A stretch of 47,072 bases of DNA, taken from NCBI GenBank assembly GCA_013824245.1, contig PNNN01000053.1, positions 1 to 47,072 of the forward strand, read 5' to 3'. Numbering within the stretch: the stretch's first letter is position 1; every line of letters begins with the position of its first letter. A program made the translations under genes and the position numbers. The stretch is from Chlorobiaceae bacterium (lineage in GTDB: Bacteria; Bacteroidota; Ignavibacteria; UBA10030; SZUA-254). Below are positions 16,906 to 47,000 of the stretch, piece after piece. The notes under the pieces were generated by a model. The model had not been told where the DNA came from and did no database searches. It saw only the letters and a list, made by a program, of their open reading frames with translations.

Positions 16906-16929
16906 ATATATTTATCCTCATTTCTATTT

Positions 16930-18783: not shown

Positions 18784-18786
18784 GCT

Positions 18787-21700: not shown

Positions 21701-22530
21701 ACTAACTGTTTTTCTTTCAGGAACCATACAAAAATGATGCGAGTAATCAATCTGATAAGGTTGATTTGAAGATTCTTTTCTTTATCCAGTTTTCTGTCAT
21801 TCGGGAATTCAACGTGCTGCAAAGCCCAAAAATACCAATTCGCTAAATCCTGAAAGAACCGTTTATTGAGTTCTTTGATATTCAGTGTTTCCTGCCAAGC
21901 ATTGTGTAATTCAACAAAGTTTGTGAATTGAAACTTTTTTTTCAATTCGTCAAACGTAAGGTCATGAAGGATTTCAATGTGTGCCCGGTGGGGGTTCGCA
22001 ATGTTGATGTCTTTAATCAGCGTTACTTTCTCCAACACATCTTTGCTTTCGTCACGCTTGTGCAACCTGCGGTTGATTACAGACAGTGTAAGTGTGCTTC
22101 CGTGCCTGAACAATATCATTGCAGGCATAGGGAACAGGCGGTTCACTTCACGGGTGATGAGTGAAAGTTCTGTCCGGCCGTATTGTTCGCGGCTTAATTC
22201 AATGGCAAAAAATAAGTAGGTTTCAATTATTGTGCTGTCAACTTTTTTGGTGTCAAACAATACAGTTTGTTTCAGCACCTCTTCTTTTGATATCTGGAAC
22301 AGTAAGTCAACATGCTTCCATTGCTTTACTAGTGCCTTCTCTTCATCGAAATGCGAATCCACAGAGATAAAGGATTCTTTGAACTGTGTAAAGGTTGGTT
22401 TCTCTAATGGCGACTGCCGGTCAGTTGTATAACCCAAAACATTAAACAGATTCAACGCCTTCCGGCTCAGATCTCCTTCTTTAAACGCGTTTATTGTTTG
22501 TTTGATTTTCTCTTTAACGTCGGTGCTCAT
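18787..22530 (-). CDS. Eco57I-like DNA adenine methylase (large, defence-associated)
   Basis: This 1247-residue protein has the Eco57I/type IIG methylase core: SAM motif I ILDPACGSGAFAMG near residue 590 and the catalytic N6-adenine motif VVIGNPPYIVSKG near residue 825. A TaqI-like target-recognition C terminus follows (LRGLTTGDDKKF-like, here VWRGLTTGDDKKF). The first 550 residues are a helical region with LAYYTPETETTARKQTGSFYTPREIV just before the methylase domain. I do not see a clear PD-(D/E)xK motif in its N terminus, so cleavage may depend on partners. Its start codon overlaps the DUF1016 stop (ATGA), and the ATPase gene follows after 3 bp. It probably methylates adenines at a specific site to mark self DNA. 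Confidence 0.88.
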   Translation of the reverse strand: MSTDVKEKIKQTINAFKEGDLSRKALNLFNVLGYTTDRQSPLEKPTFTQFKESFISVDSHFDEEKALVKQWKHVDLLFQISKEEVLKQTVLFDTKKVDSTIIETYLFFAIELSREQYGRTELSLITREVNRLFPMPAMILFRHGSTLTLSVINRRLHKRDESKDVLEKVTLIKDINIANPHRAHIEILHDLTFDELKKKFQFTNFVELHNAWQETLNIKELNKRFFQDLANWYFWALQHVEFPNDRKLDKEKNLQINLIRLITRIIFVWFLKEKQLVLENLFNKSFIKSKLKSFDPEGDKAKTYYTAILQNLFFATLNQKMNEREFVKDGNFNTNREQHGIKNKYRYAKQFAISEKEVIELFKEIPFLNGGLFDCLDKDNDETGKHEYIDGFSREEKKTAKIPDMLFFGKSRVLDLSEGYGYKRTKENCRGLLEIFNDYKFTIEENTPIEEEIALDPELLGKVFENLLAYYTPETETTARKQTGSFYTPREIVEYMVDESLISYLKTQMLEENPVWLQLGNLQSDMFGNTSRKGQLPIEQEIGRSGWKDKEAELESNLRQLISYTDEKQLFTDEKDVQELIYAIDHSKILDPACGSGAFAMGILHKFVYVLGKLDKDNVRWRELQKRKAQVEIDNALNESDKKERERKLIDINESFEDNASNYGRKLYLIENCIFGVDIQPIAVQISKLRFFISLVVDQREKKGADNRGIRPLPNLETKFVAANTLIGLEKPAQLPMGYQVIEPLQQKLQQVRHRHFEAKSRQDKLRCQREDKAIRKNIAEELKRLGFGNNDADKVAQFDIYDQNASANWFEPEWMFGKELSKGFDVVIGNPPYIVSKGGRYTGGEFSKEIINYFKSRYRTAEQQFNTYTLFIEFTKDVLSKNGISYYIVPNTFLANEYSLRLREFLTKDVNIHELFATGLAFEAATVETIVLGFGNTKCEYLKIRKGDKFVILKTKDIISLTDDKKLLIKLNEKSLLLIQKLNSFPKLKTFAKVWRGLTTGDDKKFIASSKISKAHKPLITGSDIERYGCLTPQKYVQYTPELLDRSRDERIFLLKEKLVSKFVGTKLTFTYDDRQFYILNSGCVTEINSNDVNIKYLLAVLNSYLLNYYFSNVFTDYRETFPIMKSGNVENLPTPILELQKQSPFIVLVDYILLLKRKKVDSTFIERLIDAMVYELYLPDSIKAAGAEVLKHLNNLPELKEGEDEKNLKTIEKVYKELSDPKHPVNVAMFKMDTIEEIAIIEGKK

Positions 22531-23675
22531 AATTTTTTCAGTTCTTCTTTAACAAAATTCTCCAAATCTTTTTTTGCCGGCAATTGGAGTTTGTATTTAC
22601 TGACAAACATCTTATTATCAACGCCTCCAAGAGCATATTCCACGAGCGGTTTGTTGCGGTCGGCAACTAGCAAAATACCTATGGGCGGAGTATCGTTCGG
22701 TTCACACACATTCTTTTTATAATAGTTCAGGTAGGTATTGAGCTGAGCAATATGAGCATGATTGAAAGCATCGACCTTCAGTTCCACCAGCACATGACAT
22801 TTCAAAATTCGGTGGTACAACACTAAATCGATGAAGAAATACTCGTCGCCAATGAGAATTTTCTTCTGTCTGTCCTCGATGCAAAAACCCATACCCAGTT
22901 CAAGAATAAATTCCTGAAAATGATTGAGCAATGCCTGTTCTATATCGCTTTCCTCAACGACCTCCTTGTGCGGTAATTTCAAAAACTCAAAAAAATAGAG
23001 ATCTTTTACAGCATCATGTGGTTCCTGCGGTTTTATTTTTTGTTCTAACCGTGCTAAAGCTTTCTTCTTATCGGTCGAAAGACCAAGACGTTCATAACTG
23101 AGCGTATCGATTTGCCGCCGGAGTTCGCGCACCGACAAAGTTTGGCGCGTCGCAAGCATTTCATAATATTGTCTTTTTACCGGGTCATCGATCTTGATCA
23201 ATTCCGTGAAATGTGAAAACGATACACTGTGCAGCAATTGTTGAGTATGGCGGAGATCCGCATCGGTGAATTGTTGGGACACCGTCCCAAGATTTTGCGT
23301 GGGATTTTTTGAAGAACTTTTCTTTTCGGTTGTCAAATAGAGTTTCAATTGGTCGGACAGTGTCTGACCAATTGCAGGAAGCATCTTCAATTCTTGGGAC
23401 ACTGTCCCAAGAATTTGAGGATACGAAACATAAAACTGCCTGCAACGCGAAAGCTCAGGAGCGGATAATCCTTTTATATTGATGGTTTTGGCAAGTTTTA
23501 AAAGCAACTGCGCTCCATACTTGGCTCGATCTTTACCGTTTTGTTCATACTGAACAATACAAAACCCGAACAACCAGTTGCGGAGTGTAAGCCGGGAATT
23601 GACCGCTTTGACCGCATCGGTATAGAGTGCGTCATTTGTTGCAACAACAATATCTGCAAGCTGCTTAAAATTCAT
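22527..23675 (-). CDS. DUF1016/YhcG-family PD-(D/E)xK nuclease
   Basis: The 382-residue protein has the two-part DUF1016 architecture. The N-terminal helical part contains LRNWLFGFCIVQYEQNG (about 31-47), SAPELSRCRQFYVSYPQI and FSHFTELIKI. The C-terminal nuclease contains EYFFIDLVLYHRILKCHVLVELK (catalytic D and E-x-K) and AQLNTYLNYY. Such proteins are predicted PD-(D/E)xK nucleases often found beside restriction-modification genes. Between the parts, the peptides ILGTVSQ (88-94), IGQTLSDQ (102-109) and NLGTVSQ (128-134) are each encoded by a DNA palindrome. The gene lies 6 bp after the helicase and overlaps the methylase start by 4 bp. It probably supplies a nuclease activity of the complex. 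Confidence 0.88.
   Translation of the reverse strand: MNFKQLADIVVATNDALYTDAVKAVNSRLTLRNWLFGFCIVQYEQNGKDRAKYGAQLLLKLAKTINIKGLSAPELSRCRQFYVSYPQILGTVSQELKMLPAIGQTLSDQLKLYLTTEKKSSSKNPTQNLGTVSQQFTDADLRHTQQLLHSVSFSHFTELIKIDDPVKRQYYEMLATRQTLSVRELRRQIDTLSYERLGLSTDKKKALARLEQKIKPQEPHDAVKDLYFFEFLKLPHKEVVEESDIEQALLNHFQEFILELGMGFCIEDRQKKILIGDEYFFIDLVLYHRILKCHVLVELKVDAFNHAHIAQLNTYLNYYKKNVCEPNDTPPIGILLVADRNKPLVEYALGGVDNKMFVSKYKLQLPAKKDLENFVKEELKKL
23274..23415. repeat. Three palindromes inside the DUF1016 coding sequence
   Basis: Three inverted repeats lie in frame. At 23389-23415 a perfect 13-bp palindrome has arms AATTCTTGGGACA and TGTCCCAAGAATT with a 1-nt centre. At 23347-23373 arms AATTGGTCGGACA and TGTCTGACCAATT have one wobble and a 1-nt centre. 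At 23274-23290 TTGGGAC and GTCCCAA flank a 3-nt centre. The first two units are 27 nt, a multiple of three. All share the core GGACA/TGTC and encode near-identical peptides of the type (L/Q)(G/T)(T/L)(V/S)SxQ. Confidence 0.9.
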
Positions 23676-23681
23676 AGTATG

Positions 23682-26600
23682 CTATTGGATCACCAACCAG
23701 GTGACGAGTTCAAAATTATTCATCTCTTTTACTTGTTTCTCAAGAGGAATTAACAGTCCGCCTCTATCGGTTGTCAATTTCTGGTTCTGTCTTTTGTGGA
23801 ACACGCGGACAATTTCATCGACAGCTTTTTTCAATTGTTCCGTGTAATTATCCATTTTCTCTCCAAGATGTGTTTCTTTATTAAATTTATTACAGAGTTC
23901 AATGAACGGCTCTGCTCTACCTTGGCACAGCAATCTATAAATTTCTAAAATCTGCTTTGCATTAGTATAATTGAACCGTACTTGTCCATCTTCCCAAATA
24001 TACACAAGGAAATACGGCTGCAATGGATTCGCCTCTTCATTTCCATCCGTATCTCCTTTTTGTTTCAGACAATATACAACTCCGGGTTTGATGATCTTCC
24101 TTTCCATTTCAGAAAATTTATTTATATCCAGATATTTAGCGTGAGCGCCTGATGGCGATGGCACAACTGCATATAAGCCAAACGGTGCATCATTTAATTT
24201 CTTGCGGTTATTTTCTAAGTAATTCGAGAGTTCAATGCGGAAGTCGTCTAATGTAAAATCTGTTAGCGAAATGCTTTCATTCATATCCTCCAGATCAAGA
24301 ACTTCATCGCGCAAACGTTTCAGTTGTTGGTTTCTATATTTTAAATCTTCTTCAATCAAGTCTTCTAATTGTTCGGTATTCAAAATATTATCTTCGCCTG
24401 TAGCCGTAACGTCAACCAAAGCCATTCGTGCTTCAACACGTTCTTTCAGGTTAATATAATTATCGAGATCCTTGGTGGGCCAGAAATTAACCAATTGAAT
24501 TTTAGCGTTCTTGCTTCCTAACCGATCAATACGGCCAAATCGCTGAATGATGCGGACGGGATTCCAGTGGATATCATAATTTATCAGGTAATCACAGTCC
24601 TGCAAATTTTGCCCCTCGCTTATACAGTCTGTAGCGATTAGAATATCGATCTCCTCATCCTGTGGCATTTTCTCCAGTTTATTTCTATTCTTAGCTATCG
24701 GGGAGAAGTTAGTAAGTATATTCGAGTAATCGTTTTTGCCCAAAGTTGTTTTTGTGAAGTCGCCGGAAACTAGCGCACAATGTAAACCAAGATCTTTTCT
24801 AATCCATTGTTCAAGATTTGAGTATAAATATTCAGCTGTATCGGCAAAAGCTGTAAAAATAATTACCTTCTTATTATCACCATTTATCGGTTGTTTAATC
24901 TTTTTGAGTATCTGTTCTTTTAATTCTTTTATCTTAGCATCTCTATCGGGTGTTACCGCAACAGCATTATTATAAATATCTGAAAGAGCTTCTTTATCTT
25001 GCTTTAAGTCGGCAAGCCATTCATCTAATTTTAGATCTGCTAAATCGTATTTTAATTTTTTACCAACCTGCCACTGTTCAAGATCATCTGCATTTTCCTC
25101 GATTTCATCTTCATCCGGCTGGACAGAAGTTAAATCTGTTTCAAATGTTTTCGTTTTAAGTTTTTTAAATTCTATTATTTTACCCTCAAGGTGTTCTATT
25201 TTCTTAATCGTCCGATCCAATGAGATCTCAAAAGATTCAACCGAGCTCTCCAACCGTTTGAGATAATTTACTTTCATCATCCCGATAAGGAAATTCTCAC
25301 GATCACTCTGGGTAAAGTTCAATGTTTCCTTATTGGCTCTATCCGCATACTTACTTAATATTTCAGGATCATCTTTCAGATATGCCGAAGGATTGTATAC
25401 CGAGAGTTTATATTCCAGAATTTTTTTATTCAGCGTATCGTAGTTGAAAAATCTATTTTTGATATCAATGTTAGGATAAATTGAATGCGGTTTTAATCTT
25501 TCGGAAAATTGACCGATTGATTTAATATCATAAAAACTCTTAATATGTTTCCTGCTTCTGGCGATCGTTAATTCATCCAGTAGTTTAAAAAAAGAAGAAT
25601 CTAATCGTTCCAACAATTGTTTTACTGTCCTGTCAGGGTTTTTCCTTCTGTCCGCCCAATTAGTAAACTGGGTCTGTGCATTCTTGAGGGACAATTCAAT
25701 ATCTTTAATTCGGGTATCTGCAAATAGAGCGTCTTTTTTCCCTTCAGTTATTAGCAATATTTGGTTTCTTAAATCGCGCAAATTATTATTTACGGGCGTG
25801 GCAGAGAGTAGCAGCACTTTAGTCTTAACACCAGACTTAATAATTTTTTCCATTAGCCATTTTGCCCGATTCATCCTTATCTCACCGTTATCCTTAATTT
25901 TATCCATAGGATTACCACGGAAATTATGGCTTTCGTCTATCACTACTAAATCGTACGCGCCCCAATTAAATTTATCTTCAGATAGATCGTGCCCATCGGC
26001 ATCTGAAATACCATATGTTCTTCCCATGTCGGTATGATAAAGGATATGATAATTATATCTATCTCTTTTAAAAGGATTCAAGTTGTTATTTTTACTCGCT
26101 TGGTATACTGTCCAATTGTCTTTCAATTTTTTAGGACATAATACGAGCGTTCTAAAGTTAAGCTTTTCAAAATAATGAATTACAGCAAGAGCTTCATAGG
26201 TTTTACCAAGACCAACGCTGTCTGCAATTATACATCCATTATGTTTTAATATCTTATTTATTGCACCCTTCACACCGTCTTTTTGAAAATCATACAGCAT
26301 ATTCCAGATTTCACTTTCGAAAAATCCGGTCTGCTTATTCAACAATCCGCCTTTTTCCTGTTCATCCAGAAATTTTTCAAAAATATGATAAAGCGTCTTG
26401 TAATATATGAACTCCGGCTCATTCTCCACATAGAATTGATCTAAATACTTGAGTACCTCTTCTTTTACATCTTCAACTAAACCGGTTTTATCATTCCAGA
26501 GATCATCAAACCATTGTTCAAGTTCGTCAGAATCTCTCCGATCTTGAATAACCATATTGAGTTCGATATTGTGGCTACCACTTAAGCCCAAACCGTTTAC

Positions 26601-27026
26601 TGTAAAGTTTGAGCTCCCCATTACAGATTCCTTCACCCCGTTGGGATTTTCAATTAAATAAAGTTTTCCATGAAGGAAGTTTGGCTTTACCATCGACTTA
26701 ATATCAACTTTTTTCTTTATCCATTCCGCACAATCTCTTGCTATGGATTTCTGAGATATTCGATTTTCAATCGGTATTACGATTTGATCATCTTCAATTT
26801 TAAATTCTCTTTTATTAGTCTTTGAAGGATCTATGGATTTTATGAAGGTTGGCTCACCAAAAAGAAATCGAAGCTTCTCAATGGAATTCAATTGAGGTTT
26901 TAGTTGATTGTACGCGTAAATAGTGAAGTACGCAGAAACAATCGAAAGCTTTGAATTAGTAGAGATCTTATCACGCAAAAAATCTCCAACATTGCCATTT
27001 TTATTATTATCTTTGATAGAACTCAT
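23682..27026 (-). CDS. SNF2/DEAD-type helicase with N-terminal phospholipase D-like domain
   Basis: The 1114-residue protein joins a PLD-like domain to a superfamily 2 helicase. The PLD half-motif is H119-x-K121 (LHGKLYL), followed by GSSNFTVNG (137-145). The helicase has motif I DSVGLGKT (269-276), motif II DESH (364-367) and motif III SAT (408-410). Its second RecA domain has KVIIFTAF, LIATDCISEGQNLQ and motif VI QRFGRIDR, near residue 850. PLD domains in this position can be nucleases, but only one HKD motif is seen, so dimerisation would be needed. It is the first gene of the operon that continues with DUF1016, methylase and ATPase. It resembles the restriction/translocation module of restriction-modification-like systems. 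Confidence 0.88.
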   Translation of the reverse strand: MSSIKDNNKNGNVGDFLRDKISTNSKLSIVSAYFTIYAYNQLKPQLNSIEKLRFLFGEPTFIKSIDPSKTNKREFKIEDDQIVIPIENRISQKSIARDCAEWIKKKVDIKSMVKPNFLHGKLYLIENPNGVKESVMGSSNFTVNGLGLSGSHNIELNMVIQDRRDSDELEQWFDDLWNDKTGLVEDVKEEVLKYLDQFYVENEPEFIYYKTLYHIFEKFLDEQEKGGLLNKQTGFFESEIWNMLYDFQKDGVKGAINKILKHNGCIIADSVGLGKTYEALAVIHYFEKLNFRTLVLCPKKLKDNWTVYQASKNNNLNPFKRDRYNYHILYHTDMGRTYGISDADGHDLSEDKFNWGAYDLVVIDESHNFRGNPMDKIKDNGEIRMNRAKWLMEKIIKSGVKTKVLLLSATPVNNNLRDLRNQILLITEGKKDALFADTRIKDIELSLKNAQTQFTNWADRRKNPDRTVKQLLERLDSSFFKLLDELTIARSRKHIKSFYDIKSIGQFSERLKPHSIYPNIDIKNRFFNYDTLNKKILEYKLSVYNPSAYLKDDPEILSKYADRANKETLNFTQSDRENFLIGMMKVNYLKRLESSVESFEISLDRTIKKIEHLEGKIIEFKKLKTKTFETDLTSVQPDEDEIEENADDLEQWQVGKKLKYDLADLKLDEWLADLKQDKEALSDIYNNAVAVTPDRDAKIKELKEQILKKIKQPINGDNKKVIIFTAFADTAEYLYSNLEQWIRKDLGLHCALVSGDFTKTTLGKNDYSNILTNFSPIAKNRNKLEKMPQDEEIDILIATDCISEGQNLQDCDYLINYDIHWNPVRIIQRFGRIDRLGSKNAKIQLVNFWPTKDLDNYINLKERVEARMALVDVTATGEDNILNTEQLEDLIEEDLKYRNQQLKRLRDEVLDLEDMNESISLTDFTLDDFRIELSNYLENNRKKLNDAPFGLYAVVPSPSGAHAKYLDINKFSEMERKIIKPGVVYCLKQKGDTDGNEEANPLQPYFLVYIWEDGQVRFNYTNAKQILEIYRLLCQGRAEPFIELCNKFNKETHLGEKMDNYTEQLKKAVDEIVRVFHKRQNQKLTTDRGGLLIPLEKQVKEMNNFELVTWLVIQ

Positions 27027-29858: not shown

Positions 29859-31163
29859 TTATTTCTCCAATTCGTCCGTTCTAAGTTTAACTCCGATAAG
29901 TTTTAAAAATTCTGAGGGCAACTCTCCACCTGCAAAAACAAATACAAAATCGTTCATAATTACTTTCTGCTCATGGTTTGCTTCCTGTAAAACAACACTA
30001 TCTGTCTGAATTTGATCGACATGCGATTGAAATATCACGCTAAGTTTCCCCTCCTTTTTCATTTCCAGAATGTTTTTTTCATTACGCTCCTTCAAACGGA
30101 AAAATTCTTCTTTACGATAACTTATTATCACTTTATTGCCGGGTTGACGCGCAAGTCCAACTGCCGCCTCGATCGCACTATCGCCGCCACCCACAACTAA
30201 AATATGCTTACCGGTAAAAGATTCCGCATCAAAGAGTCGATAAAATACTTTGGGCAGATTTTCTCCTGGTACATTTAGTTTGCGCGGAGTCCCGCGTCTT
30301 CCCATTGCCAGGACTACACTGGATGCGGTACACTGCCCGCTATTAGCCGATATCTGAAACTTATCTCCATCTTTCTGTATTGAAAGAACTCTGTCTCCGG
30401 TACGAACGTCAAGTTGATACTTTTGAACAAGTCCATTAAAAAGATCGAGTAATTTTTCCTTACTGATTTCTGAAATCTGCAATTTTCCAAAGAGAGGCAA
30501 CTCTACAGGGGAAGTTAGAACGAGCTTCTGTCTTGGATAATGAAGTATCGATCCGCCTAGATCATCCTGTTCAAAAATTATAGAGCGGAGTTGGTGGTGC
30601 TTAGCACTAAGACCGGCAGAAATACCCGCTGGTCCGGCACCGATGATAGCGATATCGGTATCAACTATTTTGTTCGGTTGAATACTTGCTGCGATATGTT
30701 TAACTGCTTTTATGCCATGTGAGAAAGCATTTCTGATTAGGCCCACACCGCCGAGTTCACCAACTATATAGAGACCTTCTATATTCGACTGGTAATGTTC
30801 ATCATAGAATGGAATTTCCATTCCCTGCTTTGGTTTGCCAAAACCCATCGTAATACCCCCGACCGGACAAGCATCCGCACATAAAGCATGGCCAATGCAC
30901 CTTGCACCATTAATAATTGCCGGCTTGCCGTTGATCATGCCGAGCACATCCTCAGGACAGGCTTTTACGCATCCACCACATCCAATACATGATAACATGT
31001 CTATCCGGGGATGAAGAGTTGCAGGTTCTGTCATACCGGCATTAACATTTTTTTCATGCATCTTTCTTATCAGCTTCTTCTTTTTCTCCGCGATCAACCA
31101 GTACGGTACGGCTATAACAAAAACGAGAAAAATAAATATGAGTAGGGAGAATACAGTTTCCAT
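29859..31163 (-). CDS. Membrane-anchored 4Fe-4S / FAD-NAD(P) oxidoreductase
   Basis: The 434-residue protein has an N-terminal membrane helix (about 4-24) followed by KKKK, placing the rest in the cytoplasm. A two-cluster ferredoxin domain follows: cluster one C59-C62-C65-C69, cluster two C89-H92-C95-C99, where one ligand position is histidine. The rest is a thioredoxin-reductase-like (YpdA-type) flavoprotein with FAD motif IAIIGAGPAGISAG and NAD(P) motif VVGGGDSAIEAA, but without a redox CxxC. It probably moves electrons between NAD(P)H, flavin and Fe-S centres. It is the last gene of the cytochrome operon, its ATG overlapping the porin stop (TGATG), so it is likely the cytoplasmic entry or exit point for electrons. 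The partner is not known. Confidence 0.85.
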   Translation of the reverse strand: METVFSLLIFIFLVFVIAVPYWLIAEKKKKLIRKMHEKNVNAGMTEPATLHPRIDMLSCIGCGGCVKACPEDVLGMINGKPAIINGARCIGHALCADACPVGGITMGFGKPKQGMEIPFYDEHYQSNIEGLYIVGELGGVGLIRNAFSHGIKAVKHIAASIQPNKIVDTDIAIIGAGPAGISAGLSAKHHQLRSIIFEQDDLGGSILHYPRQKLVLTSPVELPLFGKLQISEISKEKLLDLFNGLVQKYQLDVRTGDRVLSIQKDGDKFQISANSGQCTASSVVLAMGRRGTPRKLNVPGENLPKVFYRLFDAESFTGKHILVVGGGDSAIEAAVGLARQPGNKVIISYRKEEFFRLKERNEKNILEMKKEGKLSVIFQSHVDQIQTDSVVLQEANHEQKVIMNDFVFVFAGGELPSEFLKLIGVKLRTDELEK

Positions 31164-32767
31164 CAGAACTTCTTGCGGACTTCAGCGAGAAAAGTATAAC
31201 CATCAGAGGCATGCCCAACAAAACGTTCTACACTTCCCCACAAGGTTACGGACTTGAATATGTTTGTAAAGATATCGAGTGAATAAGAGGTATAGACTAA
31301 TAGATCACCCGTTCGTGAAATTGTATTCCTATTCACCTGATAATGTAGTGATGCATCGAGCATATTGAAAATATTTTTCTGCACACTTAATCCATAGATT
31401 TTTGACTTAGCGTATTCGGTCGAGTTCAATGACACGGAAAACCGTGATATGAACCCAGAATTAAAAGCATTAGAAAAATTGACTGAAGAATAATTTAGAT
31501 ATTCTTTACCAAGTTGACCGGAGATCAGGCGTGGCGAGTAATTGTTATAGATTGATATGCCATAAGATAACCAGATGTTAATATTGAGATTCGGTGTAGT
31601 ACGAATTCTTAAATCGAGAAGAGAATCTGGGATTGTTCGGATTGAAGCGAATGAATAAGATGGTCTCCACATAACTAAACCTGCACCGACAGCAACTGTG
31701 GATGGAAAGCGATAATCAACATTCGCATTGAAAAGAGCGGGTTTTGGTGATAGAATGTATTTAGTTTCTGATTTCATTCGCAAATCAAGATCGCACAGCG
31801 CGCTAATGCTCAATCGTTCAAGAAGAAATATTCTGAAGGATCCACTTAAAGACTCACGATTAAGAAGTGAACCGTAATAAGATCGAACATAAGAAATATT
31901 TAACGATGGATGCAGAATACTGTTTGTGGAATATGATCCAAATATCGCCGCTTTTTTGATGTTTGATGAAAATGTTCGCTGTGTATAACCCGGTTCAAAT
32001 CCGGCGACTAAACCAAACGTCAAACCATCAAAAGTTCTGAGAGCCATTAAACCGTCAATGTATCCGATCCCTGGAGAATATGTTGGTACAATTCGTCCTA
32101 TGGAGATAATATTTGTCCCATCATTGAATGAAAGTGAAAATCTATAAATCCTCGAACGGTCAACACCCTTAGAAGAAAAAAGATTTAGATTACCTTGGTA
32201 TAAACGTCTTAGATTAGCATAGATTTCAAAACTAACCGGTATCCCGGTCAACTTGCCGTTGAGGTTGATGATTCCACCAGATTGTGAATATTTAAAATTT
32301 GTCAATGAGGAGGTAGTCCCATGATATTGCAATCCGACTGAGCCATGGATTAATAACCAGCTATGAGATGATGATTGGATGCTGTCTTTACCAACAGAGT
32401 CCGTTGCAACAATTATTGGTATGGAATCAATTACGGTTTCCATGGTATGATCGATTGACGAACTTTTGGTTTCACTGATGAGCGGAATAAAAATCAATGC
32501 ATCTCCAACTTTCAAGTCTCTTTTCTTATCAAGAATATTGCAGACTGATGTTTTTGAACTCGTGGCAAAAACTTTCAGAACTGCAATAGTATCATCACCT
32601 GAAAGAGCAATAATTAAGCTCGAGTCACTAACACCGGCATCTCTTCCCAAAGATGTATATACAGCACCAGATGAAATGTATGTAATGCGACCAGTGACAA
32701 CGGATTTCTGCCCGTATGCAGATAATGCGAAAACAAAAAGGATGAATATGAATGTAATACTTTTCAT
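31163..32767 (-). CDS. Outer-membrane beta-barrel protein of the cytochrome operon
   Basis: The 534-residue protein has a signal peptide (about 1-19, ending AYGQ), then a small SH3-like beta domain (about 22-98; VTGRITYISSGAVYTSLG, later LKVGDALIFIP). From about 140 it is a long run of alternating beta strands rich in aromatic and serine residues, ending in a C-terminal phenylalanine (EVRKKF), the usual outer-membrane barrel signature. Its ATG overlaps the stop of the 19-heme cytochrome. In known porin-cytochrome conduits the barrel holds a multiheme cytochrome through the outer membrane; the same role is inferred here. The barrel sequence itself does not look like MtrB or another named family to me. 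Confidence 0.8.
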   Translation of the reverse strand: MKSITFIFILFVFALSAYGQKSVVTGRITYISSGAVYTSLGRDAGVSDSSLIIALSGDDTIAVLKVFATSSKTSVCNILDKKRDLKVGDALIFIPLISETKSSSIDHTMETVIDSIPIIVATDSVGKDSIQSSSHSWLLIHGSVGLQYHGTTSSLTNFKYSQSGGIINLNGKLTGIPVSFEIYANLRRLYQGNLNLFSSKGVDRSRIYRFSLSFNDGTNIISIGRIVPTYSPGIGYIDGLMALRTFDGLTFGLVAGFEPGYTQRTFSSNIKKAAIFGSYSTNSILHPSLNISYVRSYYGSLLNRESLSGSFRIFLLERLSISALCDLDLRMKSETKYILSPKPALFNANVDYRFPSTVAVGAGLVMWRPSYSFASIRTIPDSLLDLRIRTTPNLNINIWLSYGISIYNNYSPRLISGQLGKEYLNYSSVNFSNAFNSGFISRFSVSLNSTEYAKSKIYGLSVQKNIFNMLDASLHYQVNRNTISRTGDLLVYTSYSLDIFTNIFKSVTLWGSVERFVGHASDGYTFLAEVRKKF

Positions 32768-34215
32768 TTTACGTTTTCATGGCATCTAAAACAATCGGAA
32801 CTCAAGTAAACATAATTTCCGACATCCGTATGTTTTGCATTCATGTCTGTTTGATTGTGCTCATGACAATCAACGCATGAGAACTGTTTATAATCAGACT
32901 GAGTAGTATGGCAATCAGTACATAGTGTCCATTTCCCCTGATGCGCACCTGAATAAATTCTGAAATATTGCTGGTCATGATTAAAGGTTGAAGGAGACCA
33001 AGCAGAAGTTGTATGACAGGGTGAACAATCGTGCGGGAAATTGGCAACTGCATGATTAGGATCCGTCGGTCGAATGTAATCATCCTGATGACAAGCATAA
33101 CAGTCAGAGTACGTGAGCTGATAATTACCACCTATGTGGCAGGACAGACATTGCGTAGTGATATGCTGACCGGTTAATGGAAATTTCGTTATCGAATGAT
33201 CAAAGGTTGCAGGCGCCCAGGAATCTGTAGAGTGACACTGGGAACAATCGGTACTGAATCCACCTGTAACATGGTTCGGATTGTCCGAATTCTGATAATC
33301 AGTTTGATGGCATGTATAACAGCCGCTATAAACAAGCTGATAATTGCTATTAACGTGACAAGATTGACATGAAATTGTTCTATGTTTGCCCGTTAAATTG
33401 AATTTTGTTGAAGCATGATTAAACGTTGATGGAGTCCAAGCAGCGGTTGAATGACATATCTGGCACGCATGGCTCACTCCAGCAGAAACATGATCTAATA
33501 AAACAGCAGTTGTGAAATCTGCTGAGTGGCAGTTGTAGCACTCACTTGAAAGATTTCTGAATTGATTGTTCTTATGGCATTGAATACAGATTATTGCACG
33601 ATGAGCACCGGTCAAAGGAAAAGCAGTCAGCGAATGATCGAAACTTCCACCCCAACTTGAAGCTGTAAAATTATGGCAATTCCGGCAGTCAACGGGAAAT
33701 AGTTCGCTGACATGACTTGGATTTAAAGTCGCTCTGTAATCAGGCTCATGACAACCGATACAAGTTAAAGGTGTTCCCGCGAAGCGATAAGTTGATGCAC
33801 GTTCATGGCAAGTACCGCAGTCTAATTGAGCATGTCTGCCAAGAAGTGGAAATCTTGTTTGCTGGTGCTTCTGTTTCATATCCGTGATAATCCATGAATT
33901 CATGTCATGGCAACGTTTACAATCATTACCGAGTTCCGATCTGTGAACATCAACATGACAAGCAGTACATTCGGAATTTTGTCCTACGAACTTTAAATCA
34001 TTGTGGCAAGATTTGCATGAAACATTCTTGTGGTAACCTACGAGAGAAAAACCGGTCGAATTATGTTTGAATATTGTACTATCGCTCAGCTTCCAGGAGA
34101 CAGTTGAATGGCATTCTCCGCAAGGTCGATTTAGTTTCCCGTGAGGAGATTGCGACTTTTGTGCGTTGAGGTTTGTAACGCTTAATAATATGGCGAAAAT
34201 AATAAATCGTATCAT
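32764..34215 (-). CDS. 19-heme c-type cytochrome
   Basis: I count 19 CxxCH heme-binding motifs in about 483 residues, one per 25 residues. The start is placed at 34215 because the peptide MIRFIIFAILLSVTNLNAQ is a clean signal peptide and its ATG overlaps the upstream stop (ATGA). A 27-nt-longer start at 34239 is possible but would run into the preceding gene. The C-terminal half is made of tandem tri-heme modules of about 70 residues: FNH...TKFNLTGKH...CxxCH...CYTCH..DY...PNH...CxxCH...W. The conserved FxH and GxH histidines are probable distal heme ligands. It is periplasmic or on the outer membrane. Such arrays carry electrons over long distance, so extracellular electron transfer is plausible. 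Confidence 0.93.
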   Translation of the reverse strand: MIRFIIFAILLSVTNLNAQKSQSPHGKLNRPCGECHSTVSWKLSDSTIFKHNSTGFSLVGYHKNVSCKSCHNDLKFVGQNSECTACHVDVHRSELGNDCKRCHDMNSWIITDMKQKHQQTRFPLLGRHAQLDCGTCHERASTYRFAGTPLTCIGCHEPDYRATLNPSHVSELFPVDCRNCHNFTASSWGGSFDHSLTAFPLTGAHRAIICIQCHKNNQFRNLSSECYNCHSADFTTAVLLDHVSAGVSHACQICHSTAAWTPSTFNHASTKFNLTGKHRTISCQSCHVNSNYQLVYSGCYTCHQTDYQNSDNPNHVTGGFSTDCSQCHSTDSWAPATFDHSITKFPLTGQHITTQCLSCHIGGNYQLTYSDCYACHQDDYIRPTDPNHAVANFPHDCSPCHTTSAWSPSTFNHDQQYFRIYSGAHQGKWTLCTDCHTTQSDYKQFSCVDCHEHNQTDMNAKHTDVGNYVYLSSDCFRCHENVK

Positions 34216-35882
34216 TGCATGATTCCTTTTTGATGACATGATTCACATGAAATTTCCAAAGGTTTAAATTGAATAAATTGTGATTCCCCCTTTTTTCCTA
34301 TTGTATGACAGGACAAACATGAAACATTTTTATGTTTCCCCGTTAGTTTAAATCTACTCTGTGTTTCGTGATTGAAGATAAGTGATCTCCAACCTTCAGC
34401 CGTATGGCATCTGAAGCAGTTTGTTTTACCATACTCGCTAAACTGCCCTACATGCGGATCAGTATGGCACGATTCACAATCGGATGGTATTTTTCTAAAA
34501 ACAACTTTACCCGATATAGTATCGGAATCTTTATGGCATTTAGCACATCCGACATTATTGTGACGACCAGCAAGAGGGAATGTGGTGATTGAATGATCAA
34601 ACGATGCATCCTTCCATCCTGTTGTGACATGACAATTCCCACAACTTTTTTCTTTCATCATCGAAATGAAAGCACCTCCATGAATATCCTTATGGCATGT
34701 TTCACATGATATATCCGGGAAGTGGAAGACCGGAGATTTCGATTCGATTTTACGATGGCAATCATTGCACGGTACCGCAGTATGTGCTCCTTTGAGAGGG
34801 AAGCGTGTAGAAGCATGTTTTTCCAAGGAATACGCGCTTGGTTTATATCCATTTGTCGAATGACATACTGAGCAATCGCTTTTATACGATTGCAGAAATA
34901 CTCCTTTATGCTCATCAGAGTGGCAATCTGTACAATTATTATGATCTCGGTGAAACCGCGATTTGAAATCTTGTTTAATAGTCGGAGGATGGCATTGTTC
35001 ACATTTTATTTCTTTATGCTTTCCGGTAAGTTTATATCGGGTTAAATCATGATCGAAAAATTTATTAGATACTTCTGCCCATCCAACAGGCGAATGGCAT
35101 CGAGAACAATTGCCTTGATTCATCAACGATTTATGTGGAGATTGGTGGCATGATTTGCAATCCGTAAAATCATTTTTTACCAAACTAACATTGCCGTTTT
35201 TGTTATTCTCATTCATTGATGGATGACATTCACTGCATTTGGTTTGCAGATGCTTTCCAATTAATGGAAATTTTGTGCGAGCATGATCGAAGCGGTTTAC
35301 ATTTTTCCATCCGTCTGGAGTGTGGCAAGAAGAACACTCCTGACCGAATTTGTCTTTATGAGGATCGGGATGACAAGATGCACAAGCTTGAGTTAAGCCG
35401 AGATATGTTTTGCGTTTACTTTTTTCCAAAATTTTCTTAATAGCCACATCTTTGCGGTATGTTGCTGAATGGCACTTCTCACACCCGACAGAGGAATGTT
35501 TTCCCGATAGATTAAATCCGGTTTTGATGTGATCAAATTTATTCTCTTCGAAAAGGACTGTTTTCGATTCACGACCTAAATGTTCTTTATGGCATTCGAC
35601 GCAAAACCCCGTGGCTGTTACGGCGTGATACCCGTGTTTTTCTTTCCTAAGAATTTGAATTTCCAAATGGCAGGCGAGACATTTCGCTCCACTGATTTCC
35701 GTACCCACTTCATGACAGTTTATGCAATTTTGTGAACCCTCAAGATGCTGATGAGAATTCGAAAGGTCACCGGGAGAAAACTGAGCAAACAGATTTGCCG
35801 TAATGAATCCCAAGAAAAATAGTTGATAAAAAAATAGAGAACAAGTTATCCTTGAGAAAAACATTTTATTCATTTGTAACAT
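34212..35882 (-). CDS. 20-heme c-type cytochrome
   Basis: I count 20 CxxCH motifs in about 556 residues. The open frame reaches up to 35981, but the upstream gene ends at 35882, and the ATG at 35880-35882 overlaps its TGA (TGATG). The next ATG, at 35873, is an alternative. A signal peptide follows (hydrophobic stretch ending ANLFAQ). Repeat units resemble those of the neighbouring 19-heme protein (FDH...TRYKLTGKH...CEQCH; HDLTRYKL; FPLAGRHNNVGCAKCH), and the two probably arose by duplication. Lysine content is higher than in the sister protein. It is the second gene of the operon, and its stop overlaps the 19-heme gene start. The likely role is a periplasmic electron carrier between the inner-membrane quinol oxidase and the outer membrane. 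Confidence 0.92.
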   Translation of the reverse strand: MLQMNKMFFSRITCSLFFYQLFFLGFITANLFAQFSPGDLSNSHQHLEGSQNCINCHEVGTEISGAKCLACHLEIQILRKEKHGYHAVTATGFCVECHKEHLGRESKTVLFEENKFDHIKTGFNLSGKHSSVGCEKCHSATYRKDVAIKKILEKSKRKTYLGLTQACASCHPDPHKDKFGQECSSCHTPDGWKNVNRFDHARTKFPLIGKHLQTKCSECHPSMNENNKNGNVSLVKNDFTDCKSCHQSPHKSLMNQGNCSRCHSPVGWAEVSNKFFDHDLTRYKLTGKHKEIKCEQCHPPTIKQDFKSRFHRDHNNCTDCHSDEHKGVFLQSYKSDCSVCHSTNGYKPSAYSLEKHASTRFPLKGAHTAVPCNDCHRKIESKSPVFHFPDISCETCHKDIHGGAFISMMKEKSCGNCHVTTGWKDASFDHSITTFPLAGRHNNVGCAKCHKDSDTISGKVVFRKIPSDCESCHTDPHVGQFSEYGKTNCFRCHTAEGWRSLIFNHETQSRFKLTGKHKNVSCLSCHTIGKKGESQFIQFKPLEISCESCHQKGIMQ

Positions 35883-36751
35883 CAAAATATCCATCTGTAC
35901 CCAAGTAAAATTACAACAACAACATGAGCGATGAGCGTGATAAACATAATAATAGTAAACGGTAAATGAATAAGATGCCAATTATGAAAGAACCGCTCGA
36001 CCTGCCCTAGCACAAACGTTTTTTGAGTCAAAGCTGCCCTCTCCAGAGCAGCATGTTTAAGAGGCAGGGCGGCTTCGGGTGCAATTTTATTCCATGATAA
36101 TATTTCCCGAATTTTATTACGCGCTTGGATCTTTGATATCTCAAGTTGAATAATAGTTACTATTGTTTGCCAAAAAGTTTGTGGTGGTTGGAATCGGGCA
36201 AAAGTTATATCAATTGTTTGACTTAAAAGAATTCCAACAGGATATCCCTGCAGAACTTCAGAAATATTTTTCATTTCCGATTCAATCTCTTCCATTGTCA
36301 GTTGTGTGCCATTGAGATTACGGGGGATAAGAACATACAAAAACCGACCGATAATTCCACTGGCTGCAACAGAAAGCATAGTCCAAAGAGTAATCGCCGC
36401 AATGCCTCCTGATTTAAATGTAGTATGATAAATTATAAATATCGGACCAAGTAAACATAATATGATATGAAAATGCAACCAGTTGGCTAACACACCAAAA
36501 GAGCGAAGTCTGTTAATCCGCTTGCGAAATGAATAAGAACTTACACCGATAATTATCATGAGCGAACCCGCTATTCCAAACCCATGACTAAAAACACCCG
36601 AAGGTTTCATTGTTTGATAATCTGACCGAAATGCCCTTAACGCAATTGGTGTATCGTAATAATTCCAGCCATTAAATGTCAAGAGAACTATTACAAAACC
36701 ACATAAGACAAGAAGAATAATTGGAAAATAGTTTCCTATAGTTCGCTTCAT
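35882..36751 (-). CDS. Diheme cytochrome b-like inner-membrane protein
   Basis: The 289-residue protein has about five membrane helices (9-27, 52-72, 90-110, 116-137, 263-285). Helix 3 carries H95 and H109, and helix 5 carries H262 and H276. Both pairs are 14 residues apart, the spacing used to hold two stacked b hemes in a four-helix bundle. H56 and H93 are also in or at helices. A soluble loop of about 120 residues separates helices 4 and 5. It is the first gene of the operon, ahead of the two multiheme cytochromes, so it probably oxidises quinol (or reduces quinone) and exchanges electrons with the 20-heme protein. The assignment is inferred from histidine spacing and context rather than recognised family membership. 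Confidence 0.7.
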   Translation of the reverse strand: MKRTIGNYFPIILLVLCGFVIVLLTFNGWNYYDTPIALRAFRSDYQTMKPSGVFSHGFGIAGSLMIIIGVSSYSFRKRINRLRSFGVLANWLHFHIILCLLGPIFIIYHTTFKSGGIAAITLWTMLSVAASGIIGRFLYVLIPRNLNGTQLTMEEIESEMKNISEVLQGYPVGILLSQTIDITFARFQPPQTFWQTIVTIIQLEISKIQARNKIREILSWNKIAPEAALPLKHAALERAALTQKTFVLGQVERFFHNWHLIHLPFTIIMFITLIAHVVVVILLGYRWIF

Positions 36752-42453: not shown

Positions 42454-43017
42454 TTATTTCTTTCGATGAATTTTATAATTTGCTCTCGGCTCTTCAACAC
42501 CAAAACCGATCCGTCTTTTTGGCTTTTCCGGTGGTTGAAGTAGTTGCCGGATTGCTTCAAAGATAGCTTGTATTTGTGTGTCATGTTTTTCAATTTTGTG
42601 CTCAAGTTCTGAAAGCTTCTGGGCAAGTTCTTTATTAGTAGAGAGTAGATCCCGAATTTTTACAAATACACGCATAATACCGATGTTTACCTGGACAGCA
42701 TTTTTGCTTCTTAAAACACTCGAGAGCATTGCAACACCTTGTTCGGTAAATACATACGGGTAATACCTACGTCCACCTTTACCTATCTTTGAGGTTTCAA
42801 TTTGAAACCTCAAAAGTACCTGACGATATTCCTCATCCGTTAGTTGGAACATAAAGTCTTCAGGAAATCTGTCTCTGTTTCGTTTTACTGCAAGGTTTAG
42901 TGACTTCGTTGGTACACCATAAAGTTACGCCAGATGACTGTCAAGCATTACTTTATGACCACGAATGAGATAAATCCGATGTTCTATAATTTCAGATGGT
43001 ATTATTTTAGTGTTCAT
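42454..43017 (-). pseudogene. ORF6N domain gene with an in-frame stop
   Basis: Reading from the ATG at 43017, the frame has the ORF6N domain start (PSEIIEHRIYLIRGHKVMLDS). Codon 31 is TAA (42925-42927), where the family has a glutamate (LAELYGV becomes LA-stop-LYGV). The frame then continues intact to 42454: VPTKSLNLAVKRNRDRFPED, GGRRYYPYVFTEQGVAMLSSV and a coiled C terminus (LSELEHKIEKHD). ORF6N proteins are DNA-binding, KilA-N/ANT-linked, often in phages or beside restriction-modification genes. A shorter product from 42852 would lack the N-terminal part. This is most simply a recent nonsense pseudogene. Confidence 0.85.
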
Positions 43018-43139
43018 AAAATATCCTTCCCGATATTTTTGTTTCCCTCAATTATATTTTGTTCTTCGCCGGTAATGTTATACAGTTTGTACACAAGCTC
43101 ATCAATCTCCCTATCTGTCGCTTTTATTTGATGCTCGAA
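43014..43139 (-). pseudogene. Duplicated C-terminal fragment of the methylase gene
   Basis: The minus strand encodes about 41 residues starting FEHQIKATDREIDELV and ending with a TGA that overlaps the ORF6N ATG. The first 16 residues are identical to the C terminus of the type IIG enzyme ending at 44070, and the rest is related. A stop codon precedes it, so it is only a remnant. It suggests that a methylase gene once ran into the ORF6N gene. Confidence 0.85.
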
Positions 43140-43161
43140 TCACGAAGTGATGGCTTTGCCA
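43139..43161. repeat. Two abutting short palindromes at a pseudogene breakpoint
   Basis: ATCAC-GAA-GTGAT (43139-43151) is followed at once by TGGC-TTT-GCCA (43151-43161). They mark the point where similarity between the methylase tail fragment and its parent stops, suggesting the palindrome took part in the rearrangement. Confidence 0.7.
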
Positions 43162-43205
43162 CAATTCCTTTTCGCCCCTTTTAACCATCCCTAAAGACTT
43201 AATGG

Positions 43206-43505
43206 TTATTTTTTATCTGTATTTGCAGCTTGCTCACCGCTTGAAGTGTTTTGACCACCCCCAGAGGATTGAGTTGGTTGTTGAACAGGTTGTTCTAATG
43301 GAATTTTTGGTAAAGCTTGTGGAACCATTCCTTTTATCCCATCTGCTATATTTGTTGATGGTGGTACATTACCACCTACAATTACCTCACCCGCCAAATT
43401 TAACTTAGGTGGGACCTCACCGAACTCAATTACTTTATTCACTTGTGGGGGAACTTGACCCTCGGTTAATTTTACCTGCTTACTTTCACTTTTTTCTTCT
43501 GCCAT
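43206..43505 (-). CDS. Small proline-rich repeat protein
   Basis: The 99-residue protein has three VPP repeats: GQVPPQVNKV, GEVPPKLNLA and GNVPPSTNIA, about 15 residues apart. The C terminus is low-complexity, rich in Q, P, S and G. It has no signal peptide or membrane helix. A good AGGAG site precedes the ATG. It follows the 144-residue membrane protein by 15 bp, at the end of the type IIG operon. It looks like a disordered adaptor or scaffold; I do not recognise its family. Confidence 0.65.
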   Translation of the reverse strand: MAEEKSESKQVKLTEGQVPPQVNKVIEFGEVPPKLNLAGEVIVGGNVPPSTNIADGIKGMVPQALPKIPLEQPVQQPTQSSGGGQNTSSGEQAANTDKK

Positions 43506-43520
43506 TTTATTTCTCCTAGT

Positions 43521-43955
43521 TTATTTATTTATAAAGTTTATTGATACAAAATATACTGTTGTTAACACGGCCAAGACAAAAAAAATTGCTGAGCAAATGT
43601 TTAGAACTTTAGTTGTTGTCGCCCACCCGTTTTTTGCCTGAAGCGCCTCTGTTTTCTCTCTAATATAATAGTCTTCAGTTATATTCAATTGTCGTGTATA
43701 AGCCTGTTGGCTTGCAAGGAATGACAAAAGGGTGATGAGAATCGAAGCTGAAAAAAAAATCCAAGACGTTATCAAGATTCCTTTATGTATTATCTCTGTT
43801 TGAGGAAAGATATCTTTTAAAAAAGTTACAGATAGACTTAAGAAACCTGTTGAAAGTGTTAGCACGTATTTATCAAATTGCTGGTAGCTTACCTGTTGGG
43901 CTTCAACAAGAAGTTTTCTTTCATCAAGATATATTTCTACTTTATCTTTGCTCAT
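43521..43955 (-). CDS. Three-helix membrane protein of the type IIG operon
   Basis: The 144-residue protein has an acidic N terminus, then three hydrophobic segments (about 30-49, 59-81, 117-141). A charged loop lies between segments two and three (SQQAYTRQLNITEDYYIREK). I do not recognise the family. Its ATG overlaps the stop of the 32-residue ORF upstream (ATGA). Small membrane proteins beside defence genes can be effectors, but nothing in the sequence proves it. Confidence 0.7.
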   Translation of the reverse strand: MSKDKVEIYLDERKLLVEAQQVSYQQFDKYVLTLSTGFLSLSVTFLKDIFPQTEIIHKGILITSWIFFSASILITLLSFLASQQAYTRQLNITEDYYIREKTEALQAKNGWATTTKVLNICSAIFFVLAVLTTVYFVSINFINK

Positions 43956-44050
43956 CGTTTAACCAAAAGATACAAAATTTTGAATCCTACAGCAAGTTCA
44001 GCTAAGAATAAAGGTATCTGTTCGACAAGTAATTCGTTTATGACTGCCAT
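43952..44050 (-). CDS. 32-residue hydrophobic peptide
   Basis: An ATG at 44050 opens a 32-codon frame with hydrophobic residues and the segment LLVEQIPLFLAELAVGFK, ending KR. Its TGA overlaps the ATG of the next gene, and it starts 20 bp after the methylase stop. The size is below usual annotation limits; the ATGA junction is the main support that it is real. Confidence 0.5.
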   Translation of the reverse strand: MAVINELLVEQIPLFLAELAVGFKILYLLVKR

Positions 44051-44069
44051 ACTTATTCTCTCTTTAATT

Positions 44070-47000
44070 TTATTTATCTTTTCCCTCTACCAACTTAATC
44101 TCTTCCTCCGTCAGTCCATACAATCTAAATACAAGCTCATCAATCTCCCTATCCGTGGCTTTGATTTGGTGTTCGAATAATTCCTTCTCGCTCTCTGCTT
44201 TGGATTGGTGTTTCTTTTTGTGTAGGTCTAACATTCTCTCGACAAGCTGTACCATCCTGTCGTGCATTGATTTTTCTTCGGGATTGTTAAAGTCGATAGC
44301 GTGGATGGGAAGCTGCTCGATGTATTGACGATTTAGAGCAATATATCCACCACGAAATGTTGTACTAATTCTCTTTAAAAAACTATTTAGAAGATCAGAA
44401 TTTAATATTCCCAACAAATACAAATAGCTCATTTTAATATCAGGATTTAATGTGATGGCATATCCGCCACCACCGCCGCCACCACTTCCAACAAAGTAAT
44501 ATATACCTTCGACATCAATTGAAAAACAACTTCCAGTTGCTAACGAGGGTACAAGAAGTTTTTGTACCCCAAATCTTGTATGGTTTTTCTTGTACACATA
44601 CCCGTACCATTCATTACCCATTCGACCTTTATTTCTTGCTGAAAGTCTTTTTCGATTTTCTATCAAATACTCCCAAGTATAAGGGAATCTTCTCTCATAG
44701 GCTTGTTTGCTAATCAAAACAGACTTTCCGTCCTGTATTTCGTATGGAAAAATTAAGAGTTTGTTTACATCTGTCAGTGCATAACGTCGAATATTTAAAG
44801 AGCCTTTTAAAAAGGGTTTGGGATGTTCTAACTCAAACCAATGTTCTTTACTTGTTGCTTTCGAATAACAGAGAATCCGCTTCCCTTCTTCTCTAATTTT
44901 TTCGACTATAAATACATCATCTGCATCTGTTTGAAGACCTACAAACAAATGAGCAATGTCATTTAGTCTAGTCGGATACTTTTTCAACTTCTCAAACAAC
45001 TTCGCTCCTTCACCAACGGCAAAGTTCCACTCGCTTGAGTTCACACCTTCTGACTTGTTAAGTGCTTCGGTCGCTTTTCCGCTGATTTGCCACCTTCGAA
45101 GATCATCAACCTTTGTGAAAGTGAACTCATCATTTTCAGCTTTGTCTAAGAATAGCAAACAAGTGTAAGTTGTTGCACCCTCAAAAATTTGTTGGTCGCC
45201 AAAGTGAACGATATAGCTCAGATGCTTGCCTTTCGAAATCAAATTCCTTAATGGCTCGCCGTATTGTGCATTGAAGAACTTGTGCGGCAGGATGTATCCA
45301 AGCTTCCCATTCTTATTCAGAAGTGAAAGAGCACGCTCAACAAACACAACATAGATATCATAATTTCCTTTGCTTGCCGATTTGTAACGACTCTTAAAAT
45401 ACTCGACCTGTAATGGTGTCCACTCTTTCATCGTTTGTATACGAATATACGGCGGATTCCCAACAATGGCGTCAAATCCGACCCCCTCTCGGTAAGGGGG
45501 AGATGTCCGCAGGACAGAGGTGGTAAAAACTTGTGGAAACGCAGTCTCCCAGTCAAACGGACGAATCCGCAGCTCCTCTTCAAGTGTAAGATTGTTGCCG
45601 AGTCCTTTTACGTCCATACCCACAAGCGAGTTGCCGCACTTGATATTGTTAGAAAGTGTCGGCAGTATTGTTTCTTTAAGTTCAAGCGTTAATTGCTTAT
45701 CGAACGATTCGGCATTTTCACCCTCCAAAAGTTTCAGGTACAAACTCATCTGTGTTACCTCAACCGCCTGAGGATCAATGTCAACACCGTAAATGTTATT
45801 GAGTAAAATATCTTTTTTCTTTCTTGTGGAAAGATGCCACAAACCCAGCGCATCCTGATAAGCATCGGGAATGCCGTCAATAGTTTTTATCGCGTCGGGA
45901 TTTGAAGAGTAATAGTCGATGTGGTAGCGAATCAAATAATCGAACATCTCAAGCAGGAACGAGCCGCTGCCGCAGGCAATATCGGCAAACTTTAGCTTTG
46001 AGATTTGCTCCGGCGATAAACCTTGCGAAGGTTCTGAACCTTCGCAAGGTTCCAGCAGTTTACCAATCGTATTCTTCACAATGTACGATGTAATAAACTG
46101 CGGCGTATAGAACACACCGCCTGCCTTGCGAACTTCCGGTTTCACATCAACCTTTGCTCTGTGCGTTGGCGTAAGCGTTATAACCTTGCCAAGGTATTGC
46201 TCGTATATGGTGCCGAGTATTTCAATCGGAATCTCGTTGAAACGGTACGGCGAGTAAGGCAAGTAAAGATTTTTGATGATATCCTTTAGCAGCTTATCAT
46301 CTATTGCGAGATTTTCGGTGAGCTTATGTTCATTGAATATCAAACCATTGTACTTTGCCCGCAAGCGCGCGAATTCTTTCAACAGCTTTTTGTAAATATC
46401 TTCTTTATCCTTATAGCTGAGCAGGATTTCGCTCTCTTCGATTTGCCTGTCTTCGCAGATACGCAAGAAAATCATACGATCAAGTATTCGCTGGACAGCT
46501 TCGTTTATTTCACCGACTGATAACGTGGAATTACGCAAGGCGATATTCTTTGCAAGCTCTTCCTGCCACGCAGATAGATCGACAAGAAATTCCTTATCGA
46601 CAGTTTTCGATGCTTCTTTTTTATCTACTGGAATATGTTTCTCCAACGCACCGCTGCCAACTGCCTCACGAGAAAAAATATCGTGGAGAGTATCGAATTC
46701 ATCTACATACCGCTCATAAGTGAAATCAAATTCTTTAATCAACCCATCGAGCGGACGGTCGAATTTCGGGCGGGCAAGAGTTCTAAACGGACGGAACTCT
46801 TCAAAGTCGGTGAGGATTACTATCGGAACCTTCGAGCTAAAACCATATGACTTCGCCTGAAAGATGGGCGCGGGGTCTGTGAGTTTTACAGACGGTTTCT
46901 TTGCCTCGACAAAGAATTTTGTTTTTCCATCGATAAGGAAACGGTAATCGGGTCGTGTTGAATCGGAACGTGCAAGCATGGATTCAATACGCACCTCTTT

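Follow-up and report, generated by a model that had tools for sequence, protein, structure and literature searches.

A Probable PCC3-Type Porin-Cytochrome Operon with a Putative Cytoplasmic NAD(P)H Input Module in a Member of the Ignavibacteria

Contig PNNN01000053.1 belongs to the 3.23-Mb draft genome of an uncultured Chlorobiaceae bacterium (GenBank assembly GCA_013824245.1; class Ignavibacteria). Its 47,072 nucleotides, the window of this analysis, contain five genes that together resemble an electron conduit across the cell envelope. Reading the open reading frames places all five on the minus strand between positions 29859 and 36751, where and in the order that an original prediction, made from the sequence alone, had put them. 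The first encodes a PCC3-type inner-membrane diheme cytochrome b-like protein (35882..36751, starting on the 36751 side; 289 residues, five predicted helices). It is followed by a 20-heme c-type cytochrome with a Sec signal (34212..35882; 556 residues, ATG at 35882, N-terminus QFSPGDLS...LEG), a 19-heme c-type cytochrome of a family referred to here as 'SPHG' (32764..34239, likely start 34215), an outer-membrane beta-barrel (31163..32767; 534 residues), and a membrane-anchored Fe-S/FAD oxidoreductase (29859..31163; 434 residues). The predicted overlap at every junction can be read directly in the sequence: it is TGATG between the cytochrome b and 20-heme genes and between the barrel and FAD genes, and ATGA between the two multiheme cytochrome genes and between the 19-heme gene and the barrel gene. 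The ATGA overlap of the two cytochrome genes presupposes the internal start at 34215, which also yields a cleaner signal peptide for the 19-heme protein; given that start, the overlaps at all four junctions amount to one or four bases.

PCC3 is a porin-cytochrome type that He et al. (2017) proposed from Proteobacteria, in the genomes of Fe(II) oxidizers (PMC5566968). Its membrane protein is described as about 300 residues long, with five helices, SGxxG on helix 4 and WX3HX13H on helices 3 and 5; the x3Hx13H/SGxxG signature marks the PCC3/PCC4 membrane protein and was likened to the ferric-reductase/NAD(P)H oxidase (NOX) domain (PMC5566968). The cytochrome b-like protein of the operon fits this description, with five hydrophobic regions by hydropathy, SGxxG at residue 131 and two x3Hx13H motifs. 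Both motifs and SGxxG recur in 51 of 51 full-length rows of the family, two of which come from the same genome. The residue that leads the motif is always Trp in the second copy and Trp, Phe, Tyr, Val or Leu in the first; in the protein under study both are Trp. His95, His109, His259, His262 and His276 are conserved in 20 aligned homologs, and the heme-ligand pairs H95/H109 and H262/H276 constitute two HX13H pairs on two helices. By the positive-inside rule the RKRINRLR loop would be cytoplasmic, with H95/H262 as the presumed inner, cytoplasm-side heme site and H109/H276 as the outer, periplasm-side site. The helical stretch of residues 153-252, the best-predicted part of an otherwise poor structural model, may likewise be cytoplasmic and could dock the flavoprotein. 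A distant relative is encoded on a plasmid of Methylophaga pinxianii (L086 12073-15427), beside a multiheme cytochrome and a different NAD(P)H flavoprotein with FAD_binding_6, NAD_binding_1 and Fer2 domains (FAD/NAD/2Fe-2S), and this pairing supports the idea that the cytochrome b family draws electrons from cytoplasmic flavoproteins. The Methylophaga locus sits in a mercury/heavy-metal and cytochrome-maturation region.

The two multiheme cytochromes contain exactly the 20 and 19 CxxCH motifs that had been predicted, and Pfam finds c7/c3-type heme domains in both. A sequence search of the PDB with the two proteins returned no match, and a scan of the operon DNA for tandem repeats found none; the repeats sit at the protein level. 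Although both counts here agree with the earlier description of a doublet of about 20-heme proteins, the two families are not symmetric. The first cytochrome has 20 hemes in 45 of 52 loci and 18, 19 or 23 in the rest, in keeping with the roughly 21-27 hemes of the PCC3 periplasmic cytochrome. Members of the second family begin with SPHG after the signal peptide and carry between 10 and 66 hemes; the two closest relatives (L021 7207-8901, L013 12513-14207) have 22 versus the 19 found here, a difference of one 73-residue, three-heme unit gained or lost. In several genomes a 10-heme version alone precedes the barrel, and about 10 hemes are enough for MtrA to cross its barrel. In the PCC3 of Gallionellaceae, 21-27 hemes are found in the periplasmic cytochrome and 10-35 in its extracellular partner (PMC10734462). 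This parallel supports the same division of labor in the present operon: the 20-heme cytochrome would be a wire of fixed length, assigned to the periplasm from its signal peptide, and the SPHG cytochrome a wire of variable length running through and beyond the outer membrane.

An AlphaFold2 model built with 23 homologs (mean pLDDT 81.5, pTM 0.62) agrees with the prediction of an outer-membrane barrel, as PCC3 also has: behind a small N-terminal beta domain, 22 strands follow one another between residue 138 and the Phe at the C-terminus. In structural comparison it comes nearest to SusC/TonB-dependent barrels, which have 22 strands (Z up to 19.1 across 365 residues, root-mean-square deviation 3.6). 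The hidden Markov model of the MtrB/PioB family (TIGR03509) matches neither the barrel, at E 0.1, nor any protein of the host genome; the barrel thus lies outside that family, membership in MtrCAB is ruled out, and the operon is unlike MtrABC, as had been stated. MtrB is also absent among the structural matches listed, which carries no weight as evidence. Could the cytochromes instead stay in the periplasm, for electron storage or as a periplasmic reductase, while the barrel serves some other purpose? The structural matches are general transport barrels, and neither cytochrome has a lipobox. We nevertheless consider this very improbable: 23 of the 24 surveyed loci that are not cut by a contig end pair the barrel with the cytochromes, the second of which adjoins it, and an expansion to 66 hemes is hard to account for within the periplasm. 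In the closest named relative of the host, the 'Bacteroidetes bacterium' DeMMO2_4 genome from the Deep Mine Microbial Observatory, an in-frame TAG splits the barrel gene (L013 14204-15808; also L020) into frames of 148 and 362 residues, reflecting a pseudogene or a sequencing error; the remaining four genes are intact.

The fifth protein, predicted to be an Fe-S/FAD oxidoreductase, indeed shows two 4Fe-4S motifs (C59/62/65/69 and C89/H92/C95/C99) and a Pyr_redox_3 domain (E 1e-46) in Pfam, preceded by an N-terminal helix and a lysine-rich stretch. Its FAD/NAD(P) domain has the two-dinucleotide fold of YpdA and thioredoxin reductase (TrxR) and is closest to YpdA and ferredoxin-NADP reductases; TIGR04018 scores 172 bits, under its cut-off of 340. 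All invariant cysteines belong to the Fe-S motifs, the redox-active cysteines of YpdA and TrxR being absent, and therefore electrons should leave through the Fe-S clusters and not through a disulfide; a thiol-reductase role is ruled out by the lack of a cysteine pair. In cluster 2 (CxxHxxCxxxCP) the second ligand position is His in 49 of 49 homologs, where ferredoxins have Cys. The equivalent position of cluster 1 is Cys in 31 of the 49 and Ser, Thr or Ala in the other 18, most of which fall in the clade in which the flavoprotein gene follows the cytochrome b gene.

Because the cytochrome b profile served as the query of the neighborhood survey, the loci were not chosen by the barrel. The profile matches 50 of 197 genomes in the class and 69 of 395 in the phylum, 28 of the latter being weak, partial matches to short proteins of one family (f34). 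Among the 27 full-length loci that reach far enough to judge, the 20-heme gene is present in 26 and the FAD/Fe-S gene in 25. Of 60 related genomes, 26 contain homologs of the barrel when it is searched alone, and the surroundings of these homologs carry the same genes. Barrel and cytochromes, whose separation in homologous neighborhoods would have spoken against the original prediction, are thus kept together across order, class and phylum. Clades differ in where the flavoprotein gene stands: it may follow the barrel gene, as in the operon studied here, come immediately behind the cytochrome b gene or, in one small clade, be divergently oriented. Only a few changes on the cytochrome b tree are required to explain these arrangements. 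Since the gene shifts its place yet stays in the cluster, its product is very likely a functional member. The pairwise distances of four of the protein families correlate at 0.85-0.90, which fits common inheritance and also a shared species history.

Several variants accompany the conserved arrangement. The f34 genomes (about 2-3 Mb) encode a short cytochrome b relative (about 195-210 residues) beside a 16-heme cytochrome with no barrel (L079 5111-7018, L080 5324-7181), perhaps a conduit-free cousin. Many distant clusters have an extra tetratricopeptide repeat protein of about 195-210 residues after the cytochrome b (L031 4507-5100, L060 4603-5202, and others); the gene, possibly for an assembly factor, is absent from the operon studied here. 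In one genome (G202; L069 3128-12474) the normal cluster is accompanied by three more proteins: a 34-heme cytochrome, a 10-heme protein and a second, short cytochrome b.

Transfer of the cluster as a unit between lineages is probable, because in the cytochrome b tree the genomes of one family (f12) fall in two well separated clades, and Emticicia (Cytophagia, on a plasmid) and f38, a family from outside the class, nest inside a clade of the host's class. Plasmid pEMTOL02 (NC_018749.1) of the cultured Emticicia oligotrophica DSM 17448 holds a complete copy (EMTOL_RS21090 to RS21110), with the genes for cytochrome b, flavoprotein, 23-heme cytochrome, 40-heme cytochrome and barrel in a row and a cytochrome c biogenesis gene adjoining. 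Viral contigs scanned with the cytochrome b gave nothing. A recent transfer between the genus of the host and that of genome G006, suggested by a barrel identity of 92% versus 79% to a genome of the host's own genus, was discarded because a dehydrogenase gene that neighbors the operon here and is unlinked in G006 trends alike (84% versus 76%). That gene (PF02826 and DUF3410) lies 567 bases upstream of the operon; downstream, after a gap of about 0.5 kb, comes a gene for a DUF4153 membrane protein. A scan for promoters and terminators gave no excess of sites over shuffled sequence. Near the operon, two defense-like islands (16477-27026 and 42454-47072), where local G+C dips to 0.32-0.34, encode an AriA/GajA-like ATPase, two type IIG restriction-methylase-like proteins, a PDC-S02 protein and an HKD+Snf2 helicase (C3a139 match, E 5e-126).

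The operon is not the only multiheme system of its host, whose other contigs (L087, L088, L089, L090) bear multiheme clusters with 19-, 13-, 12-, 11- and 8-heme proteins. The genome also holds two heme-copper oxidase genes, and near them a 5-heme protein followed by a 1022-residue protein looks, by gene sizes, like alternative complex III. Quinol oxidation therefore has other outlets in this organism. The putative iron-cycling taxa of the Deep Mine Microbial Observatory, the site of the closest relative, are mostly Ignavibacteriales (PMC8478452).

What, then, would feed this conduit? From the computed gene set, its co-conservation, the heme and Fe-S motifs and the barrel, we infer the protein contacts, the order of electron transfer, an NAD(P)H donor, the outward direction and an external acceptor. 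We propose that the five proteins form a PCC3-type trans-envelope electron conduit with its own cytoplasmic NAD(P)H input module, a reading that we regard as probable though well short of certain. Conserved gene content, the heme-b motifs, the barrel model and the Fe-S/FAD domains all support the conduit and the compartments to which its parts had been assigned. In this proposal, NAD(P)H would reduce the FAD of the membrane-anchored oxidoreductase, whose Fe-S clusters would relay the electrons to the heme b of the five-helix protein that faces the cytoplasm (H95/H262). From there they would move to the heme b on the periplasmic side (H109/H276), much as happens in NAD(P)H oxidases and ferric reductases. 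The 20-heme cytochrome would carry them across the periplasm, and the SPHG cytochrome, held in the 22-strand barrel, would take them across the outer membrane to a putative external acceptor. This path would not involve the quinone pool. Like NOX, it would also draw down the membrane potential, since no protons would accompany the electrons on their way out. A part in redox balancing or external reduction is thereby suggested, as opposed to respiration that conserves energy; its likely role is reductant disposal or the reduction of metal oxides, humics, oxygen or partner cells.

A number of points weigh against this proposal. It is computational throughout, and its donor, written NAD(P)H, may be NADH or NADPH. 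The structural model of the cytochrome b is of poor quality (pLDDT 73.5); a fold search with it placed unrelated helical bundles on top, with no NOX, STEAP or other cytochrome b among the matches listed, a result uninformative either way, and the Pfam ferric-reductase domain (FRD) does not match the protein at E 0.1. The probable assignment to PCC3 was made against published descriptions of that type. Two loci have no flavoprotein nearby, one of them a cytochrome b gene alone (L063) and the other with no flavoprotein gene in its vicinity (L068). He et al. suggested that this membrane protein family is linked to quinones (PMC5566968), and the PCC3 of strain ES-1 is down-regulated on Fe(II) (PMC8788666).

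The quinone link, together with the two loci that lack the flavoprotein, leads to a different account, in which menaquinone is the redox partner of the cytochrome b and the flavoprotein is a side input, a sensor, or a factor for cytochrome assembly or repair. The available portions of two reports describe the PCC3 of Sideroxydans as four genes (PMC12442390), Slit_0867-0870 (PMC8788666), and do not mention a flavoprotein; on that description, a conduit can exist without one. Yet the flavoprotein accompanies nearly all of the judged loci, its gene is translationally coupled to the operon under study, and it contains Fe-S clusters while lacking a thiol pair. NOX-type HX13H proteins draw on flavins, not quinols. 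We therefore think quinone feeding unlikely, if still to be taken seriously, and a NOX-like, quinone-independent NAD(P)H feed through the Fe-S/FAD/NAD(P) subunit plausible. The chain might also run inward, taking electrons from Fe(II), minerals or a partner cell and delivering them to NAD(P)+ or to the respiratory chain. PCC3 does occur in the genomes of Fe(II) oxidizers (PMC5566968), in the iron-oxidizing Sideroxydans CL21 one of the PCC3 copies shows up-regulation of its membrane-protein gene (PMC12442390), and the host has oxygen reductases. However, starting from potentials at the Fe(II) level and working against the membrane potential, reduction of NAD(P)+ would be uphill, no energy input being visible, and the ES-1 response to Fe(II) runs contrary to uptake as well. 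We accordingly rate electron uptake as decidedly doubtful.

In the well-studied multiheme conduits of Gram-negative bacteria, the quinol pool is the source of electrons. If our proposal is correct, electron export through this conduit would cost rather than build membrane potential, which would set it apart from the Mtr or Omc respiration that is fed by quinol, and the NAD(P)H input would couple extracellular electron transfer directly to the redox state of the cytoplasm. PCC3 has been a candidate conduit since 2017, and the flavoprotein offers it an electron donor that can be checked; the plasmid copy in E. oligotrophica provides a cultured host suited to such testing. The pairing of a wire of constant length with one that varies freely is, moreover, a natural test of what sets wire length. 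More tentatively, and with rather less confidence than in the conduit itself, we suggest that these clusters represent a widespread, horizontally moving Bacteroidota system for quinone-free NAD(P)H oxidation, combining a NOX-like cytochrome b with a fixed 20-heme wire matched to the width of the periplasm and an expandable wire of 10-66 hemes.

How does the operon compare with known systems? Like the Pcc of Geobacter (OmbB-OmaB-OmcB), it would combine a barrel with periplasmic and outer cytochromes; OmaB and OmcB, however, have 8 and 12 hemes versus 20 and 19 here, and neither a diheme cytochrome b nor a FAD/Fe-S subunit is described as part of the Geobacter cluster in the available text of two studies (PMC4245776, PMC7399161). 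The same portions report porin-cytochrome clusters of Ignavibacteria as OmbB- or MtrB-like, again with no description of a cytochrome b or flavoprotein (PMC4245776, PMC7399161); these published Ignavibacterium and Ignavibacteria clusters may include relatives of the present operon. With MtrCAB of Shewanella it shares the logic of a wire within an outer-membrane barrel, but MtrCAB uses an MtrB-family barrel and decaheme partners and is fed with quinol through CymA. With the NAD(P)H oxidase/FRD family it shares the two HX13H pairs on two helices, the cytoplasmic FAD/NAD(P) donor and, as proposed, outward flow; here, in contrast, the donor would be a separate YpdA/TrxR-type Fe-S/FAD protein and the acceptor a multiheme wire. 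The closest likeness is to the PCC3 of Sideroxydans, Leptothrix and Gallionellaceae, which has a membrane protein of the same description, a periplasmic cytochrome of about 20 hemes, a variable second cytochrome and a barrel, as well as repeat-rich sequences with a low ratio of residues per heme. Judged by published description, four of the five parts probably fit PCC3, so that the earlier suggestion of a distinct extracellular electron transfer system does not hold for the conduit, which is of a type already known. The differences lie in the host, a member of the Bacteroidota, in the barrel, whose 22 modeled strands make it smaller than PCC3 porins with up to 42 predicted segments, and in the gene count, a fifth, coupled Fe-S/FAD/NAD(P) gene being added to the four of PCC3. 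It is this flavoprotein subunit, with the donor proposed for it, that makes the operon distinctive.

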